From assembly GCF_000092305.1 (NCBI RefSeq), contig NC_014122.1:124001-188000 (forward strand): DNA of 64,000 nucleotides. The letters run 5' to 3'. Every line of letters starts with the position of its first letter. The stretch's first letter is position 1. Both the position numbers and the translations under genes were made by a program. Under the pieces are notes generated by a model. That model worked only from the letters and a program-made list of their open reading frames with translations. It ran no database searches and was not told the origin of the DNA. This document shows, piece by piece, positions 11,975 through 21,172 of the stretch. Source of the DNA: Methanocaldococcus infernus ME (GTDB taxonomy: Archaea > AGJL01 > Methanococci > Methanococcales > Methanocaldococcaceae).

Positions 11975-13134
11975 TCTATATAATCTTAGGCTCCCTCTGT
12001 GGAATCTTTACAGGCTTAATTCCAGGAATACATCCTAATAATATTGTAGCTCTCTCTTTTATCTTCTCTCCATTACTTGGAGAGAATTATCCTTACTTCT
12101 TAGTTTCTTTGGTTATTACTCACTACTTTATCAACTTCATTCCCTCAGCTCTCTTAGGAGTTCCTGATGATGAAACAGCCATGTCAGTGTTACCTATGCA
12201 TAAACTAACCCTAAAAGGAAGGGCTTATGAAGCCATCTTCTTAGCTGGCTTAGGAAGTTTTTTAGGAGTTATCTTCTCCTTAGTGATAAGTTTAATTATA
12301 GTTCTCTTAAGTTTTGACATAAATAAGGTTTATTTAGTGATCAAGCCCTTCCTACCAATAATTTTGTCTCTCTTTATTTTACACCAAATTTTAACATCAA
12401 AGAATATCTATGATCTTCTAACCATTTTCCTCTCAGGAATCTTTGGGATAATCATCTTCTACTTAAACCCAAGTTTTAACTCAACTTTAACAGCTGTCTT
12501 TACTGGGATGTTTGGAATTCCCCTACTTTTAAACAACCTAAAAGAGCAAAAATTTATAACTCAGCATATTAAAGAGGTAGAATTTAAATTAAGCTATTTA
12601 AAATCCATCTTCTTCTCTTCAGTTGTTGGCTTCTTCAGAATGTTCCTTCCAGCAGTTAGTGGGGCTCAGTTAAACTATATCTTAGGGAAAATCATAAAAG
12701 AGGAAGATATAGAGAACTTTTTAGTCTCTCAAGGCTCTATAGTGTTGTCTAATGAAGTCTTTTCCCTATTAGCTGTCTTTTTTATAGGCACTGGGAGAAG
12801 TGGAACAGCCAAGGCTTTAGAAACTCTTAACTTGAACTTACTTTCTCTTTTATTGGCCACATTTTTAGCATCAACTTTAGCATTCATTATATTGATTAAC
12901 TTATCAAAATATCTAATTAAAGTTCTACAGAGGGTTAATTTTAAAGTAGTTTCAGTTTTCTTTATATTCTTATCTTCCTCTATAGTTATCATCATCTCCT
13001 ATAATCATCTCCTCTATCACTTAGTTGTCTATCTAACCTCTATAGCCATTGGCTTAATAGCTACAAGGGGGAATATGTCAAACATGATTAATGTCTTGAC
13101 ATTTCCAACTATATTAATGTTGGTGAAACCATGA
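11968..13134 (+). CDS. TctA-like multi-span membrane protein
   Basis: 388 residues with about ten or more transmembrane helices, resembling the archaeal TctA-related family (COG1784/DUF112-like). Typical features are the N-terminal [14 protein letters not shown] (TctA GxxPGxxP/H motif), [26 protein letters not shown], and a second-half repeat with [19 protein letters not shown]. In bacteria TctA is the large membrane subunit of a tripartite tricarboxylate transporter, but no TctB/TctC partner is present here, so the substrate is unknown. It lies in an overlapping string moeA-this-serS; its stop overlaps the serS ATG. Confidence 0.75.
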
Positions 13135-14654
13135 AATTCCTCTTAGATGGAAAACTAATTTTTAGTAAAGAGATTGATGAAGAAGCTAAAGAAGAGATAA
13201 AGAGGTTCTTAGAAGGAGAAGCTAAAGAGTTGCTGAAGAAAGGAGTTCCTAAAGGAAAAGAAGGAGCTAAAATAGTTGATTATAAAGTTGAGGGGAACAA
13301 ATTACTCCTAACCATAGAATCTGGAAGATATGCAAGGGCTCATGACTCTATATTAAGGTTAAAGAAAGCTTTATCTCAACTCTTAGGGAAGAAGTATAGG
13401 ATAGGAGTTAGAAAGGTGGAGATTGATCTATATAAGGTTGAGATTGAGACAGATAGAGAAATTGATATAAAGATTCCTGAGTGTGAAGTCATTTCTGAGA
13501 AAGATAAAGTAGTCTTAATCTTTAAAGACATGTCTGAGAGTGATATAAGGAGAAATGTTATAGATAGAGCTGTTAAACTAATATTAAGTGAGCTTGAAAA
13601 AGAGGAAGATTTAACTAAAAAAGTTTGTAAGATACCACCAGGAACTATAGTTAGAGAGTACAAAGCCAAGAGAAAGATAACCTTTGATGAGGATGTAACT
13701 GATGTTGCTGAAAGGCTTGGCTGGATAAAAAAGTTCCCTGGAAGAGGACAGTGGTTTTATGCTCCACCTATGGCCTCTCTATTTAGAGCATTTGAAGACT
13801 TGATAGTTGAGAAGATTAAAAAAATTGGATTTGTTGAAGCTCTATTTCCTAAGTTGATTCCATTAGAGATTATGTATAAGATGAGATACTTAGAGGGCTT
13901 ACCAGAGGGAATGTTCTATGTTTGCCCTCCAAAGAGAGAGCCTGAGCTTTTTGAAGAGTTTGTTAAGGAGATGATGATAAAGAAAGAGATCCCAATAGAG
14001 AAATTGAAAAGTCTTTTAAGAAATCCTTCCTATGTCTTAGCTCCAGCACAGTGTGAGCCATTCTATCAATTCTTAGAGGGGGAGTTAATAGATGTTGATA
14101 AACCAATTATGTTTTTTGACAGAAGTGGATGGACATACAGATGGGAAGGTGGAGGAGCAAGAGGTTTAGATAGGGTTAATGAATTCCTCAGGGTTGAGTG
14201 TGTCTGGGCTGGTTCCCCTGAGGTTGTTGAAGAGATAAGGGATAAAACTTTAAAGGTTGCTGAAGAGCTTGCTGAAGAACTTGACTTAGAGTATTGGGTT
14301 GAGGTCGGAGATGATCCTTTCTACTTAGAAGGTAGGAAGAAGGAGGAGAGGAATATAGAGTTCCCAGAGGTTCCTAAGTATGAGATGAGGCTCTATCTTC
14401 CATATATAAAGGATGAGAGGAAAGGGGTGGCTGTAACCTCAGCTAATGTCCATGGAACCCACTTTGTTGAGGGCTTTAAAATTAAAGATTATAAGAATAG
14501 GAAAGTTTGGACAGGCTGTACTGGTTATGGAATAACAAGGTGGGTTGTTGGTTTCTTGGCACAGTATGGATTTAACTTTGATGACTGGCCAGAGAAGGTT
14601 AAGAAGAGAATAGGAAAGCTTCCAGAGGTTCCTAAGTTAGTAAGTTGGCCATGA
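13131..14654 (+). CDS. serS: Seryl-tRNA synthetase, methanogenic type
   Basis: 507-residue class II synthetase of the rare type-2 SerRS found in methanogens. It charges tRNA-Ser (and tRNA-Sec where present) and holds a catalytic zinc. The N-terminal 170 residues form the family-specific tRNA-binding domain ([23 protein letters not shown]). The core shows [21 protein letters not shown], the zinc-ligand region [11 protein letters not shown], motif 2 around [28 protein letters not shown], and motif 3-like [19 protein letters not shown]. Translation is coupled to the upstream membrane protein gene. The 3' end overlaps the convergent CobQ-like gene by 23 bp. Confidence 0.95.
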
Positions 14655-16011
14655 ATTTATCAAGCTCTTTTAAAAACTCTTCCTCTTCAACCTCTCTTAA
14701 GCTAATTTTTGGAATCTCCAACTTTAAGTTTAACTCCTTAGCCTTCTTACAAAATTCATGGTAGTCTATTTCAACCTCAGGGATTAAGCCTCTCTTCTCC
14801 TCACCAAGCTTTTTAACACCACAAACTTTAATATTGTATTTTTCAGCCAACTTTTTTATCTTCTCAAACAATTCAAAATTATAAACCTTATTTAAAATAA
14901 TTCCTTCAACTTTCACACCATTCTCTTCTAAGAATTTTTTATAGATTAAACTTTCTAAGAAAGCCCCTTCTATCCCTGATAGGTTACAAGAGGCTATAAT
15001 ATAAACAGGAAATCCAAGCTTCTTAGCCACTTGATAGGAAGAGATATTCTTTAAAGCTCCTGTTAATACTCCCATCACTCCCTCTACAATATAGTAGTTA
15101 TATTTAGAATTTTTAACAAATTCTTTAAACTCTTCAACAGAGCACCAACCTCTTCCTCCTATCTCTATGCTGTTATACTTACTCATCTCCTCCCTTAGAA
15201 GATAGAGAGAGGGAACTATATCTCTAACATCTCCACCAATCTTAGCCACAAAAACTTTCCCATCTAAGTGATAAGTAAGAGATGTTGTCAATAGGGTTTT
15301 CCCAGCATTGGAGCTTGTTCCTAATAAAACTACTCCTCTCTTTCCCAAGCTTTCCTTATACTCTTTATATGCTAAAGCCCTTTTTCTTAACTCTTCTCTC
15401 AAAATTTTATTTTTTTTAAAGATCTCTTCTTTCTCTTCCTCAGAAACCTTAAAAATCTCAAAAAACTTATCTCTAACCTCTCTATTGTCTAAAAATCTAT
15501 GCACTAAGGTGCCAAAAACCTTATTTTTATAAGCTCCAGAAATAATTTCCTTCTCTTCAAACTTATAATTTAGCTTCTTAACCTTTGAAACTGTCAAAAC
15601 CTTGGTTTTCCCATAAATTTTAACATCTCCATAGGTGTGACAGTGAAAGCCCTCTCCCTCTATGTTGTCAAAAGCTTTAAACTTAACCCAATCAGTACAA
15701 ACCAATGGAGAGAATTCAACTTCCAATAAGCCTAAGCCCTCAACAATTTTCGGCTTTTCACTCTTTCTTCCTATATCTATCCTTTCTCCCAAAATTTGAA
15801 AGCCACTACAGATTCCAATTATGTAGCCATCAAACTCTCTAATAACTTCTAAATTAACCCCTCTCTCTATCAATGAACCTCCAGGGATTATTAGAGCATC
15901 TAAATTTTTAATTTCATTTAGGTTATTTTCATCAACTATCTTAGTTGGCAGATAACCAAAGGTTTCAAAGCATGGGAGAGAACTCTTAATATCTAAGATC
16001 CCTATCTCCAT
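14632..16011 (-). CDS. CobQ/CobB-like amidotransferase-ATPase with reversed domain order
   Basis: About 459 residues. Residues 1 to about 190 are a CobQ-type class I glutamine amidotransferase domain: [10 protein letters not shown], nucleophile Cys in [25 protein letters not shown], and a catalytic-type His in [11 protein letters not shown]. From about 225 a DTBS/CobQ-type P-loop domain follows: [42 protein letters not shown]. Canonical CobQ/CobB have the ATPase first and the amidotransferase last, so the order is inverted. It probably amidates carboxylates of a corrinoid, tetrapyrrole or similar substrate; the real substrate is unknown. ATG 16011, one base after the apgM stop and behind GGGG, is preferred over the longer in-frame ATG at 16032. 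Confidence 0.75.
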
Positions 16012-16012
16012 C

Positions 16013-17212
16013 TTAAGCCCCAAACTTCTCATTTCTATTTGTTAAGTCTAAAAGAATTCTCATTAAATGCTCTCCCTTAATCCAATGTAAAGAGCCTTTA
16101 GCACAGCTGAATTCATCAAAGTTCTTAACATCATCTCTTCTAACACTCTTCCCCCAGATAACTATAGGAACAGGATCAGCTGAGTGGTCTTTAACTTCTA
16201 TTGGTGATGAGTGATCAGAGGTTAGAACAAAGTAAAGCTCATCTTTTGATATATTGTTAAATATAATGTTTAAGAGCTTATCAATCTCTTCAATAATCCT
16301 CTTCTTCTCTTCATACTTTCCATCATGGCTTGCCTCATCCGCAAGCTTGACATTTACTAAGGTGAAGTCATACTTCTTAATCTTATCAATGATTATCTTA
16401 GCCCTCTCTTCAACACTCATCTTTTTCTCATTAATTTCATATGTATCTAAACCCAACATCTTACCAATTCCCATTATTAAGGCTGTGCCAGCTATACAAC
16501 AGCCTCTCATTCCATATCTTTCATAAAATTTCTCAACCTTAGGAACCTTCCCCCCACCTCTTGGTAAGACAATATTAGCCTTTGGTAACCCTCTCTTAGC
16601 CCTCTCTATGTTGATTGGATGCTTATCTAACTTCTCATAAACAATCTTTAACAGCTTGTTCAAAACTTCAGCTGTCTTCTTTCCCTCTTCACTTAGAGCC
16701 TTAACCTCTGGAACCTCTCCCTCTTTGTGTGGATCTCCATCACTAACCTTATCAGAAACATCTCCTCTTAAAACCAATGCTCCCCTATAACCCTTACTTT
16801 TGAATAAAATTTTAACTCCATCTATCTCCAACCCATCAATTTCCTTCTCCAACTCTTTAGCTTCCTCTTCACTTATCCTTCCAGCCCTTCTATCAACAAC
16901 TTTAAAATTTTCATCAACTGTTGCAAAATTACATCTAAAGGCTACATCTCCCTCTTTCAACTCCATTCCTAACCCAAAAGCCTCTAATGGACCTCTTCCT
17001 GTATATACTTTATAAGGATCATAGCCAAGTATGGCCAAGTGTGAAGTGTCACTTCCTGGCCTAATTCCAATGTCTATAGCATTCATCAACCCACAGATCC
17101 CTTCTTCAGCAATCTTATCCATAGTTGGAGTCTTAGCCTCTTTTAAAGGAGTTAATCCCTTCTCATTAGGCCTATCTCCAAGGCCATCAATGATAAAGAT
17201 AACAATTTTCAT
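16013..17212 (-). CDS. apgM: 2,3-bisphosphoglycerate-independent phosphoglycerate mutase, archaeal type
   Basis: 399 residues of the alkaline-phosphatase superfamily ApgM, interconverting 3- and 2-phosphoglycerate in gluconeogenesis/glycolysis. Metal-binding segments are visible: [21 protein letters not shown] at the start, the Ser-containing [46 protein letters not shown], and [25 protein letters not shown] near the end. Start ATG 17212 follows GGAGGATTGAT. It overlaps the antiporter stop (ATGA) upstream and is one base from the CobQ-like gene downstream, so the three form one operon. Confidence 0.95.
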
Positions 17213-18420: not shown

Positions 18421-19449
18421 ATGTATCTTGTTCTCATTGTTGATTTAGATGATGATGTTGGAAGAAAAGCAGGGTTAAAAACCCCTATATTGGGAAGAGA
18501 GGAATGTATAAAGGCAGCTATAAAGTTAGGGCTTTCTGATCCAGGGGATAGTGATATCAACTCCATACTTGGAGGAGTTAAGCTATATGATGAGCTAAAA
18601 AAGGAAGGGGCTGAGATAGCAATAGTTTCCGGGTCTAAGGATGTGGAATCTAAGGAGTGTGCTGAAAAGATTAAAGGACAGTTAGACTTTCTACTAAATC
18701 TATATTCTCCTAAGTTCATTTATGTGGTTTCTGATGGAAAAGAGGATGAGCTAATTATTAACTACTTAAAAGGGCATGATATTTTTGTCTGGAAAAAGAG
18801 GATTGTAGTTAAACAGAGTGAAACCTTAGAATCAACTTACTACTTACTACAGGAGTTTATAAAAAAGACTATGGAAGAATATATCCCTTTAATCTTAACC
18901 TTTGTAGGCTTCTCTTTCCTACTCTATGCCATCTTTGCAGACATGGGTTGGAGATTAGTTATTGGAATTTTAGGGATCTATATATTAGCTGAGGCCAGTG
19001 GGGTTAGAAAAAAGTTATTTAATAGGTTAGATGAGGGCTCTGAACTCATAAACATTGAGCCTATAAGTTATGCTGCCTTCATTGTTGTTATCTTATTGGG
19101 AATTCTATATTCTTATAGTGTAACTCCAAAGTTTGATAATTTAAATTTATATATTGGAGAGTTTATATTAAACTTTTTAGACCCTCTAACTCTCTCTCTC
19201 ATTATTCTCTTGGTTGGTAGATTTATCAGTAGAGTTATTAATTTAGAGGAGAATATATTTTCATTAATTAAGAGATATATCTTTTATCTAATCTGTATAT
19301 TTATACTTAGAGAGTTCTTAGCCAATGGGGCAAAGTATATTATGGGAACTCTAAGTTTCTTAAACTTCTCTCTCTATGTCATTGTTTATTTAATAGTTAT
19401 TATAATATTGACAGTTATCCTATTCTCTAAAGAATCTGGGAAAAAATGA
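18421..19449 (+). CDS. DUF373 family membrane protein
   Basis: 342 residues. The N-terminal 150 residues are a soluble domain with VLIVDLDDDVGRKAG, DPGDSDINSILGGVKLYDELKKEG, IAIVSGSKDV and IYVVSDGKEDE, the signatures of archaeal DUF373. The C-terminal half carries about six hydrophobic helices. The nucleotide/phosphate-like acidic loop (DLDDD) suggests ligand binding, but the function of the family is not known. ATG 18421 sits behind GTGATG. It overlaps corA by 4 bp, so the two are translationally coupled, and the soluble sensor-like domain might relate to ion transport. Confidence 0.8.
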   Translation: MYLVLIVDLDDDVGRKAGLKTPILGREECIKAAIKLGLSDPGDSDINSILGGVKLYDELKKEGAEIAIVSGSKDVESKECAEKIKGQLDFLLNLYSPKFIYVVSDGKEDELIINYLKGHDIFVWKKRIVVKQSETLESTYYLLQEFIKKTMEEYIPLILTFVGFSFLLYAIFADMGWRLVIGILGIYILAEASGVRKKLFNRLDEGSELINIEPISYAAFIVVILLGILYSYSVTPKFDNLNLYIGEFILNFLDPLTLSLIILLVGRFISRVINLEENIFSLIKRYIFYLICIFILREFLANGAKYIMGTLSFLNFSLYVIVYLIVIIILTVILFSKESGKK

Positions 19450-20390
19450 TAAAGATCATAGGAGTTAAAGAGAAGTGTATTGAACAAATAGAAAGCTTAG
19501 AAGATTTGAAGCCTGAGAAGTATAATATAGTTTGGATAGACTGTTATGACCCAAGAGATGAAGAGCTCTATAAAATTTCAAAATTTTTAGGGATTTCTAT
19601 AAGTGATCTACAGGCTGGGCTTGATGATCAAGAGATCCCAAGAATTGAGGAGGAAGAAAATTATTACTTAATAATTTATAGAACTCCTCTTTTAGAGGAA
19701 TATAGTACTTCAATCCTTGGAATTTTTATAAAGGATAATATTGTTCTAACTATCCATCCTGAAAAGATTAAGTCAATAGAGAGAATTTATAACATAGTAA
19801 TAACAAGAAATCCTAATGTTTTTAAGAGCATTGGCTTCTTTATTTATGTAATTCTAAATGAGGTTACAAGAAGTTACTCAAGGATATTGGTTAGCTTAGA
19901 GGATGAACTGGAAGAGCTTGAGGATAAAATTATAAGTGGCTTTGACCAAAAAATTATTGAAAAAATTTTACATTTAAGAAAAACATTAGTTTATTTTCAT
20001 AAAGCATTAATAGCCAATAGAGATGTGTTAGTCCTCCTTAAAAGGAAATATTTACCAATAATTGGGAAAGAAGATAAGGAGAACTTTGAAGATCTTTATT
20101 ATGACACATTACAGCTTATAGACATGTCAGCAACATACAGAGAGGTTTTAACCTCAATGATGGACATAAGCTTATCTCTTGAAAATATAAAGATGAATCA
20201 GATAGTTAAGATCTTGACTATGGTTACTACCATCTTTGCCATCCCTATGTGGATCACTGGAATATTTGGGATGAATTTTGAATACATGCCTTTAATTTCC
20301 TCCCCATATGGATTTTGGCTATCTTTTACATTTATGCTTATATCTATAATCTTCTTCATCTATGTGTTCAAAAAGATGAGGTGGATCTAA
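19446..20390 (+). CDS. corA: CorA-type magnesium/cobalt channel
   Basis: 314 residues. A large N-terminal cytoplasmic domain (NIVWIDCYDPRDEELYKISKFLGI, then a long stalk helix ending in KMNQIVKILTMVTTIFAIPMWITGIFGMNFEYMP) leads to two C-terminal transmembrane helices. The GMN motif that ends TM1 is present in IFGMNFEYMP and a basic tail (FKKMRWI) closes the protein, both hallmarks of CorA. It conducts Mg2+ (or Co2+/Ni2+) into the cell. ATGA overlap with the DUF373 gene upstream; srp19 follows after one base. Confidence 0.93.
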   Translation: MIKIIGVKEKCIEQIESLEDLKPEKYNIVWIDCYDPRDEELYKISKFLGISISDLQAGLDDQEIPRIEEEENYYLIIYRTPLLEEYSTSILGIFIKDNIVLTIHPEKIKSIERIYNIVITRNPNVFKSIGFFIYVILNEVTRSYSRILVSLEDELEELEDKIISGFDQKIIEKILHLRKTLVYFHKALIANRDVLVLLKRKYLPIIGKEDKENFEDLYYDTLQLIDMSATYREVLTSMMDISLSLENIKMNQIVKILTMVTTIFAIPMWITGIFGMNFEYMPLISSPYGFWLSFTFMLISIIFFIYVFKKMRWI

Positions 20391-20391
20391 T

Positions 20392-20652
20392 TTGATCATC
20401 TGGCCCCAATATATAGATAAAAACAAGAGCAGAAAAGAGGGTAGGAAGGTTAGTAAAGAGATAGCTGTTAGAAATCCAAGCATAAAGTTGATTGAGAAAG
20501 CCCTAAAGAAAATGAATTTAAATTATAAAATTTATAGTGATAAGAGATATCCAAGAGAACATTGGGAGAGGGTTGGATATATAGAGGTTGAATATAATGG
20601 TAAGAAGTTAGAGTTTTTAAAAAAGCTATGTAAGGTTATAAGAGAGCTGTAA
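20392..20652 (+). CDS. srp19: Signal recognition particle protein SRP19
   Basis: 86-residue archaeal SRP19, which binds 7S RNA and helps SRP54 assemble for cotranslational targeting. The N-terminus MIIWPQYIDKNKSRKEGRKV and the central KRYPREHWERVGYIEV are diagnostic. The start is TTG at 20392, decided by the excellent RBS GAGGTGGATC just upstream inside the corA end. The 3' end overlaps the convergent cbiT gene by 17 bp. Confidence 0.95.
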   Translation: MIIWPQYIDKNKSRKEGRKVSKEIAVRNPSIKLIEKALKKMNLNYKIYSDKRYPREHWERVGYIEVEYNGKKLEFLKKLCKVIREL

Positions 20653-21172
20653 TTATATAGATAGGGTTGTGAGAGAAAAAGATATAGCCAGGAGAAATTT
20701 TTTTAGCCTTTGAAATATTTGCTAAGACAATATCTAATTTATAATTATAGCTCTCCAAGAGCTTTACTATTTTTAAAGTATTTTCTAACACTATAGTGTT
20801 AGCAACTATATGACTTACTTCTTTTTCAGCCAATATCTTTATAATCTCTTCAATATTTTTAGTGCCTCCAATGAAGGCTTTGTTGAACTCTAAATTTTTT
20901 ATAGCTTCTTCAGCCTTTCCATGGATAATTTCACAATTTTTTATATTAAATTTTTTTAAATTCTCCTTCAAATTTTCTATAGCCTCTCTATTTAGATCTA
21001 TTGAATAAACCTTCTTAGCCCTTAAAGCTATCTCTACACTCATCCCTCCAGCTCCTGAGCCTATGTCAGCTACAATATCATCCTTAGACAAACTTAATTT
21101 ATAAAGTGAGATAGCCCTAATCTCCTCTTTTGTTAGTGGCACTCTCTTAACAAATTGGTCATCAGGGATCAA
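20636..21172 (-). CDS. cbiT: Cobalt-precorrin-6B C15-methyltransferase CbiT
   Basis: 178-residue class I SAM methyltransferase. CbiT methylates C15 and decarboxylates the C12 acetate of cobalt-precorrin in anaerobic corrinoid synthesis, needed for methanogenic B12 factors. Motifs: MIPDDQFVKRVPLTKEEIRA at the N-terminus (typical of CbiT), SAM loop VADIGSGAGGMSVEIAL, YSIDLNREAIENLK, and IHGKAEEAI followed by AFIGGTKNIEEII. TTG start at 21172 behind GGTGACG. It stands alone and divergent from an HTH regulator. Confidence 0.93.
   Translation of the reverse strand: MIPDDQFVKRVPLTKEEIRAISLYKLSLSKDDIVADIGSGAGGMSVEIALRAKKVYSIDLNREAIENLKENLKKFNIKNCEIIHGKAEEAIKNLEFNKAFIGGTKNIEEIIKILAEKEVSHIVANTIVLENTLKIVKLLESYNYKLDIVLANISKAKKISPGYIFFSHNPIYIITALL

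Follow-up and report, generated by a model that had tools for sequence, protein, structure and literature searches.

A domain-swapped amidotransferase of Methanocaldococcus infernus as the probable a,c-diamide synthase of archaeal B12 synthesis

The window analysed here is a stretch of 64,000 nucleotides from Methanocaldococcus infernus ME (NC_014122.1, positions 124,001 to 188,000 of the forward strand), and coordinates refer to it unless another locus is named. On its minus strand it carries a gene of swapped domain order, which we call T together with its protein, and the features that bear on its interpretation are as follows.

14632..16011, minus strand: T, a cobyrinate a,c-diamide synthase-like protein of family NF004921/PRK06278, 459 aa plus stop
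15442..16011, minus strand: N-terminal class I glutaminase domain of T, residues 1-190, CobQ-type by sequence
15808..15810, minus strand: predicted nucleophile Cys68 (GICSGFQ), invariant in alignments of 30 and 53 sequences
15499..15501, minus strand: predicted catalytic His171 (GTLVHRF), invariant in the same two alignments
14707..15348, minus strand: C-terminal BioD/CobB-like ATP-dependent amide synthetase domain, residues 222-435
15298..15300, minus strand: P-loop Lys238 (GTSSNAGKT), likewise invariant in both alignments
15220..15243, minus strand: K257-x-G259-G-D261-V-R263-D264, by alignment the counterpart of K-x-G-P-D-Y-I-D in CbiA/CfbB
15073..15084, minus strand: E310-G-V-M, by alignment the counterpart of EGVMG in CbiA
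16013..17212, minus strand: apgM, directly upstream of T with a 1-nt gap
20636..21172, minus strand: cbiT, a corrin-pathway gene (TIGR02469 CbiT, 89.9 bits, cut-off 78.3)

The reading frame of T is unbroken and its stop codon ends at 14632; the start is placed at the ATG at 16009-16011, which is conserved across relatives, and a longer ORF extends to 16032. A serS gene of the serS_MJ type (13131-14654) converges on T, the 3' ends overlapping by 23 bases. An earlier note on this DNA saw no clear clue in the coupling of T to apgM and an antiporter gene, and the pairing was indeed not seen at the other methanococcal loci; a functional tie of T to apgM, the antiporter or serS was dropped because the arrangement is not conserved in the neighbourhoods of relatives. 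The context of apgM and the antiporter gene is uninformative, yet cbiT lies on the same strand as T at a distance of 4.6 kb. A gene for a CorA magnesium/cobalt transporter (19446-20387) sits between the two.

The protein had been read in that note as a complete glutaminase domain preceding a complete DTBS/CobQ P-loop domain, and both Pfam and an AlphaFold2 model agree. Pfam places GATase_3 at residues 34-178 (5.2e-11) followed by AAA_26, best at residues 301-398 (1.3e-10), both above their cut-offs, and the model, made with 53 sequences, has a mean pLDDT of 92.7 and a pTM of 0.91. Residues 1-196 of the model match the glutaminases HisH, PdxT and GatD (best Z 17.6, to HisH), and residues 221-434 match dethiobiotin synthetases (best Z 16.2), with no CobB or CobQ structure among the matches listed (Foldseek/VIA); BioD shares the fold of residues 221-434 but has no glutaminase domain. 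The Cys in GICSGFQ, the His in LVHRF and the P-loop GTSSNAGKT had also been singled out, and their invariance as Cys68, His171 and Lys238 in the alignment of 30 sequences bears this out; T has the fold of a class I glutamine amidotransferase as well as its Cys and His. The motif around His171 aligns with GTY-[LF]-HG of CobQ, and there is no Glu two positions past the His (VHRF). In the ATP domain K257, G259 and D264 are invariant, and D261 and R263 are conserved in at least 90%, of the 30 aligned sequences.

Over residues 1-457 of 459, T matches NF004921/PRK06278 with 676.1 bits (cut-off 354, E 2.9e-203), and by sequence it is a member of that existing family, which has the same domain order and length. 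The reversed order is therefore how a family that already has a name is normally built. The domain-order search proposed in the earlier note thus leads to a known architecture, but a report characterising the family was not found. The NCBIfam name, which gives a role in cobyrinate a,c-diamide synthesis, is an annotation, and a literature search covering open-licence papers found no published test of it; a search by gene name brought up one resequencing paper, on MMP1477/1478, and one unrelated hit, and a search for essentiality data from M. maripaludis gave no paper. Models of related enzymes score below their cut-offs on T, by a wide margin for canonical CobB (46.5 bits against 261.4 for TIGR00379 and 53 against 254 for NF002204), CobQ (70.8 against 273 and 43.2 against 309.9) and CfbB (35.8 against 560 for NF033195), and also for bioD (26.9 against 83.3).

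The genome of M. infernus also holds a canonical CobB-type gene (L002) and a CobQ-type gene (L001), separate from T and with the ATP domain first, in agreement with the claim that the order in T is opposite to that of CobB and CobQ. CfbB makes Ni-sirohydrochlorin a,c-diamide for coenzyme F430. Its ATP domain is homologous to that of T, but it has the canonical order and its own gene, L002, in the same genome. With CbiA/CobB, T shares the ATP domain with its K-x-G-P-D-x-x-D and EGVMG motifs, the proximity to cbiD and, in one genus (g38), the place that the canonical enzyme takes over; it differs in lacking the ATP-first order, in a glutaminase half that is nearer to CobQ, and at two motif positions, where Thr317 stands for the Asp of EGVMGLxDG and Arg for the Ile of DYID. 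With CobQ/CbiP it has the glutaminase domain in common, but the order is different, the ATP domain lacks the CobQ motif FKSQNMSLNS, and a separate CobQ is encoded in the same genome.

The two halves of T thus resemble different enzymes, the ATP half being CobB-like and the glutaminase half CobQ-like. Outside the family, the glutaminase half searched on its own matches CobQ PRK00784 most strongly (9.4e-14), and no CobB model reaches E <= 1e-4. For the ATP half searched in the same way the strongest such match is CobB PRK01077 (1.1e-14), with no match to a CobQ model, and its K-x-G-[PG]-D-x-R-D aligns with the K-x-G-P-D-Y-I-D of CbiA/CfbB, not with the F-K-S-Q-N-M of CobQ. Unrooted trees of 55 chosen rows set the groups apart and nothing further. 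In trees rooted with BioD or PdxT (32 of the 55 rows plus 4 BioD or 5 PdxT rows, the outgroup stretches L233, which has no ATG ORF of 120 aa, and L243 being omitted), the in-tree groupings have support of 66.7 and 86.5 and the alternative groupings are not rejected (p-AU 0.57-0.82). A historical origin of T as a CobB/CobQ chimera is not claimed, and "chimera" is a description and not a demonstrated history, because the rooted trees leave the branching undecided.

The likeness of the glutaminase half to CobQ fits a reading in which CfbB, a canonical and CbiA-like enzyme, or some other enzyme makes cobyrinate a,c-diamide and T performs a different corrinoid amidation, such as part of the CobQ reactions. 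A full CobQ is nevertheless present in M. infernus and in nine other genomes whose CobQ gene was read, and together with the distribution described below this makes such a division of labour improbable.

Presence in the following surveys means detection, some of the genomes being incomplete. A scan of genome contigs with the single sequence gave no confirmed relative; a profile scan of the contigs picked up 137 of 155 stretches, the best 80 of which were kept. Named matches come from Methanocaldococcus, Methanothermococcus, Methanobrevibacter, many Bathyarchaeota and a few other archaeal MAGs. In its own phylum, Methanococcota, T exceeds the cut-off in 33/36 genomes, the three misses being 54-81% complete, and cbiD is found in 35/36, the exception being G003 (85% complete), which has T. 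Among Methanobacteriota (the phylum of G037) the cut-off is passed in 120/151 genomes, and 123/151 have T at E <= 1e-30, the threshold used for the T-positive class below. When archaeal relatives at least 85% complete are considered, T exceeds the cut-off in 48/297, all 48 of them Methanococcota or Methanobacteriota, and among 14 control genomes M. jannaschii alone passes the cut-off.

An association with B12 synthesis is seen in the gene order that is usual in the Bathyarchaeota. On one side of T lie hemA, cbiXC, cbiD, cbiE, cbiT and cbiL, as far as the contig reaches; on the other, T is followed in most loci by met8, hemB, hemL, hemC, sumT and hemD, of which hemL, hemC and hemD were named from reading the sequences. 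A divergent hemA adjoins T in 27/32 loci; four loci do not have the hemA cluster (L084, L096, L106 and L124) and L082 begins at T. For one locus, L087, NCBIfam backs nine of the neighbours, the cbiC half falling below its models' cut-offs. Reading of the sequences places T downstream of a cobalt-uptake set with a CbiM-like first gene in L124, and downstream of an iron/B12-type ABC uptake set in L096. In a sample of 250 genomes from the phylum of G441, which includes the Bathyarchaeota, T exceeds the cut-off in 20, all of which have cbiD (T without cbiD, 0/20), and in 19 of these T lies within 4 kb of it. The methanogen loci do not show such clustering. Of 29 methanococcal loci, among which at least three regions occur twice (L039/L075, L054/L074 and L055/L079), four have a tetrapyrrole gene near T. 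One of the four is the cbiT of the window, and another is hemL by a weak match (90 bits), possibly a different aminotransferase. None of 18 Methanobacteriota loci has such a gene near T. In Methanobacteriota T is often immediately preceded by gatA on the same strand, with touching ends in L066 (7981-9366).

In the same 250 genomes T and the canonical enzyme are mostly found apart. Canonical CobB above the cut-off is absent from 16 of the 20 genomes with T, and the 92 genomes with cbiD divide into 16 with T only, 68 with the canonical enzyme only, four with both and four with neither (Fisher p 6e-11, a value that ignores the kinship of the genomes). Of the 68 canonical-only genomes, 44 have the canonical gene no more than 10 kb from cbiD; of the four with both (G437, G444, G446 and G695), none does. 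In the last three, which are Bathyarchaeum-type, no tetrapyrrole gene was recognised around the canonical gene; the Bathyarchaeum-type loci L199, L200 and L201 have a second, canonical-order CobB homologue outside the cbi cluster, among genes that read as radical-SAM-like. The genomes with cbiD and neither enzyme are G507, G528, G628 and G686, the last with a divergent full-length relative of 300.6 bits. Among 30 genomes picked for holding T, mostly Bathyarchaeota, canonical CobB/CbiA/CfbB above the cut-off is missing from 25, and synthesis of F430 by the known route is therefore unlikely in those; one of the 30, G448, is assigned to Methanobacteriota because its canonical gene occupies the same place as in G201.

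These neighbourhoods also bear on whether T might amidate another tetrapyrrole, for instance sirohydrochlorin or siroheme in the manner of DsrN, or an F430 precursor in the manner of CfbB. The Bathyarchaeota cluster includes met8 and sumT, which are common to siroheme synthesis, and CbiA, CfbB and DsrN, the last a siroheme-amidating enzyme tied to dsr genes, are described as homologues with differing tetrapyrrole substrates (PMC10504309). Against a siroheme role stands the presence of cbiD in every T genome of the 250-genome sample, and against an F430 role the 25 picked genomes without canonical CbiA/CfbB. The lack of any canonical CobB in most T genomes of the Bathyarchaeota phylum is likewise at odds with a share in the CobQ reactions.

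Methanobacteriota provide evidence of replacement. T and cbiD occur together in 116 of the 151 genomes, and among the matches listed none of the 116 has a second canonical CobB of the type scoring about 385 bits, a count in which a second copy below about 331 bits would escape notice. Two canonical matches were recorded in ten T-positive genomes, all ten of which are scored as without a second CbiA: in G111, G117 and G136 both visible matches are of CfbB strength or a fragment of such, and in G070, G071, G073, G089, G114, G132 and G166 at most one match is visible. By contrast, 17 of the 23 genomes with cbiD and no detected T have a second canonical CobB among the matches listed, these being 16 of genus g38 and G193. 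In g38, 17 of 19 genomes have cbiD without T, and 16 of these 17 have the second canonical enzyme. In 14 of the 17 genomes, all of them in g38, the second copy and cbiD are no more than 7 kb apart; that of G193 is not beside cbi genes. In the three g38 loci examined (L193, L194 and L197) it is part of an operon, cbiL-cbiD-(methyltransferase)-cbiG-(methyltransferase)-cbiJ-cbiET-CbiA-cbiC, for which, in L193, cbiG, cbiJ and CbiA were named by family search and the remaining genes by BLAST. In its accessible text, a survey of lateral transfer in Methanosphaera does not mention cbi genes (PMC3445992).

Exceptions to this arrangement amount to 13 of the 151 Methanobacteriota, counts that cover related genomes and hence are not independent events. 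In seven of the 123 T-positive genomes cbiD was not detected (G074, G089, G090, G119, G125, G166 and G167); G119 and G166 are more than 90% complete, and G089 and G090 (82% and 64% complete) are the remaining two genomes of g38. The T of G089 (L065:3671-5302) has altered ATP-domain motifs, GSNIKD and IEGEKG, and is possibly decaying or repurposed. In six of the 23 genomes with cbiD and no T a second CbiA was not seen (G098, G128, G133, G169, G175 and G200), G128 and G169 being 95% and 93% complete; the cbiD of G097 is a fragment (77 bits). Genus g43 has five genomes in which neither T nor cbiD was detected. A canonical CfbB-type enzyme separate from T is present in 117 of the 123 T-positive genomes, and no canonical CobB, CfbB included, was found at E <= 1e-40 in the other six (G069, G074, G077, G090, G150 and G181), of which G069, G077, G150 and G181 have both T and cbiD. 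Since these six show not even CfbB, misses from fragmented genomes do occur.

The Methanobacteriota pattern is what would be expected if T and CbiA did the same job, and the change from T to CbiA implies that the two are equivalent in function, which argues against a part in the CobQ reactions; that the CbiA taking over from T lies within a cbi operon speaks against siroheme as well. With a separate CfbB-type enzyme in those 117 genomes and in M. infernus itself, a role for T on some other tetrapyrrole, F430 precursors included, seems to us hardly probable.

The occurrence of T, the genes around it and the way canonical CbiA replaces it together point to the a,c-diamidation of anaerobic B12 synthesis as its function. 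We consider it probable that T is the B12-pathway a,c-diamide synthase of these archaea, doing the job of CbiA in a reversed build; reaction and substrate are what we infer from these data. The role most likely covers Methanococcota, most Methanobacteriota and many Bathyarchaeia. What is new here is that gene linkage and the takeover by canonical CbiA lend support to the annotated function of a named family. The carboxylate on which the earlier note left the enzyme to act, perhaps that of a tetrapyrrole or corrinoid, is likely to belong to such a compound, and what was left open can be narrowed to this one diamidation.

The mechanism would follow that of CbiA/CobB, a reaction summarised in PMC7242693. 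Ammonia would be set free from glutamine at Cys68/His171 of the N-terminal glutaminase. Cobyrinic acid, or a cobalt-corrin intermediate close to it, would be phosphorylated on its a and c acetate side chains by the C-terminal CobB-like domain with ATP. The ammonia would then pass between the domains and displace the phosphate, the transfer, a channel and the order of reaction all being presumed. In methanogens, T acting on B12 would leave the single canonical enzyme, CfbB, free for F430. Alternatively, the amidations might act on an earlier cobalt tetrapyrrole and not on finished cobyrinic acid, with an order of the B12 route unlike the bacterial one; this would then be why the heme/cobalamin cluster has a separate, reversed enzyme at its centre in place of CbiA, though we think such an order unlikely.

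T is a candidate for a step that otherwise seems to be missing, since most T genomes of the sampled Bathyarchaeota phylum have cbiD without canonical CbiA. Cobalamin genes are reported for some Bathyarchaeota subgroups in one paper, in the text of which the word amidotransferase was not found (PMC7110647). Hydrogenotrophic methanogens typically show just one canonical enzyme to serve both F430 and B12. In a 2011 inventory of Methanothermobacter, one gene, MTH1460, is listed as CbiA, and the B12 genes of methanogens are described as not clustered (PMC3087415). Should T have the role proposed here, our guess would be that MTH1460 is probably CfbB, with the NF004921/PRK06278 family as the real B12 enzyme. 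T would then also show clearly how a reversed domain order can give the same reaction, one lineage having naturally gone over to the canonical form.

A divergent relative with the same domain order, T2, is found in five Thermoproteota-type genomes at 238-255 bits, below the cut-off. Its loci are as follows.

L209:6607-8013: T2
L210:6038-7471: T2
L211:6032-7444: T2
L212:6575-7993: T2
L213:6856-8271: T2

The T2 neighbourhood is conserved in these five genomes of the 250-genome sample and contains no tetrapyrrole genes; canonical CobB exceeds the cut-off in four and is present as pieces in the fifth, and cbiD occurs in two of the five. In unrooted trees T2 is one branch among T and not outside it. 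These facts would suit a family with no fixed corrinoid role, in which co-occurrence with cbiD is a matter of shared ancestry and substrates vary by lineage. The link of T to cbiD is physical, beyond phyletic, in the 19 genomes noted above, and it is CbiA in a cbi operon that replaces T, such that we regard this explanation as very improbable and keep to a,c-diamidation for T. In L211, T2 lies downstream of a protein that weakly matches a cis-3-hydroxy-L-proline dehydratase model.
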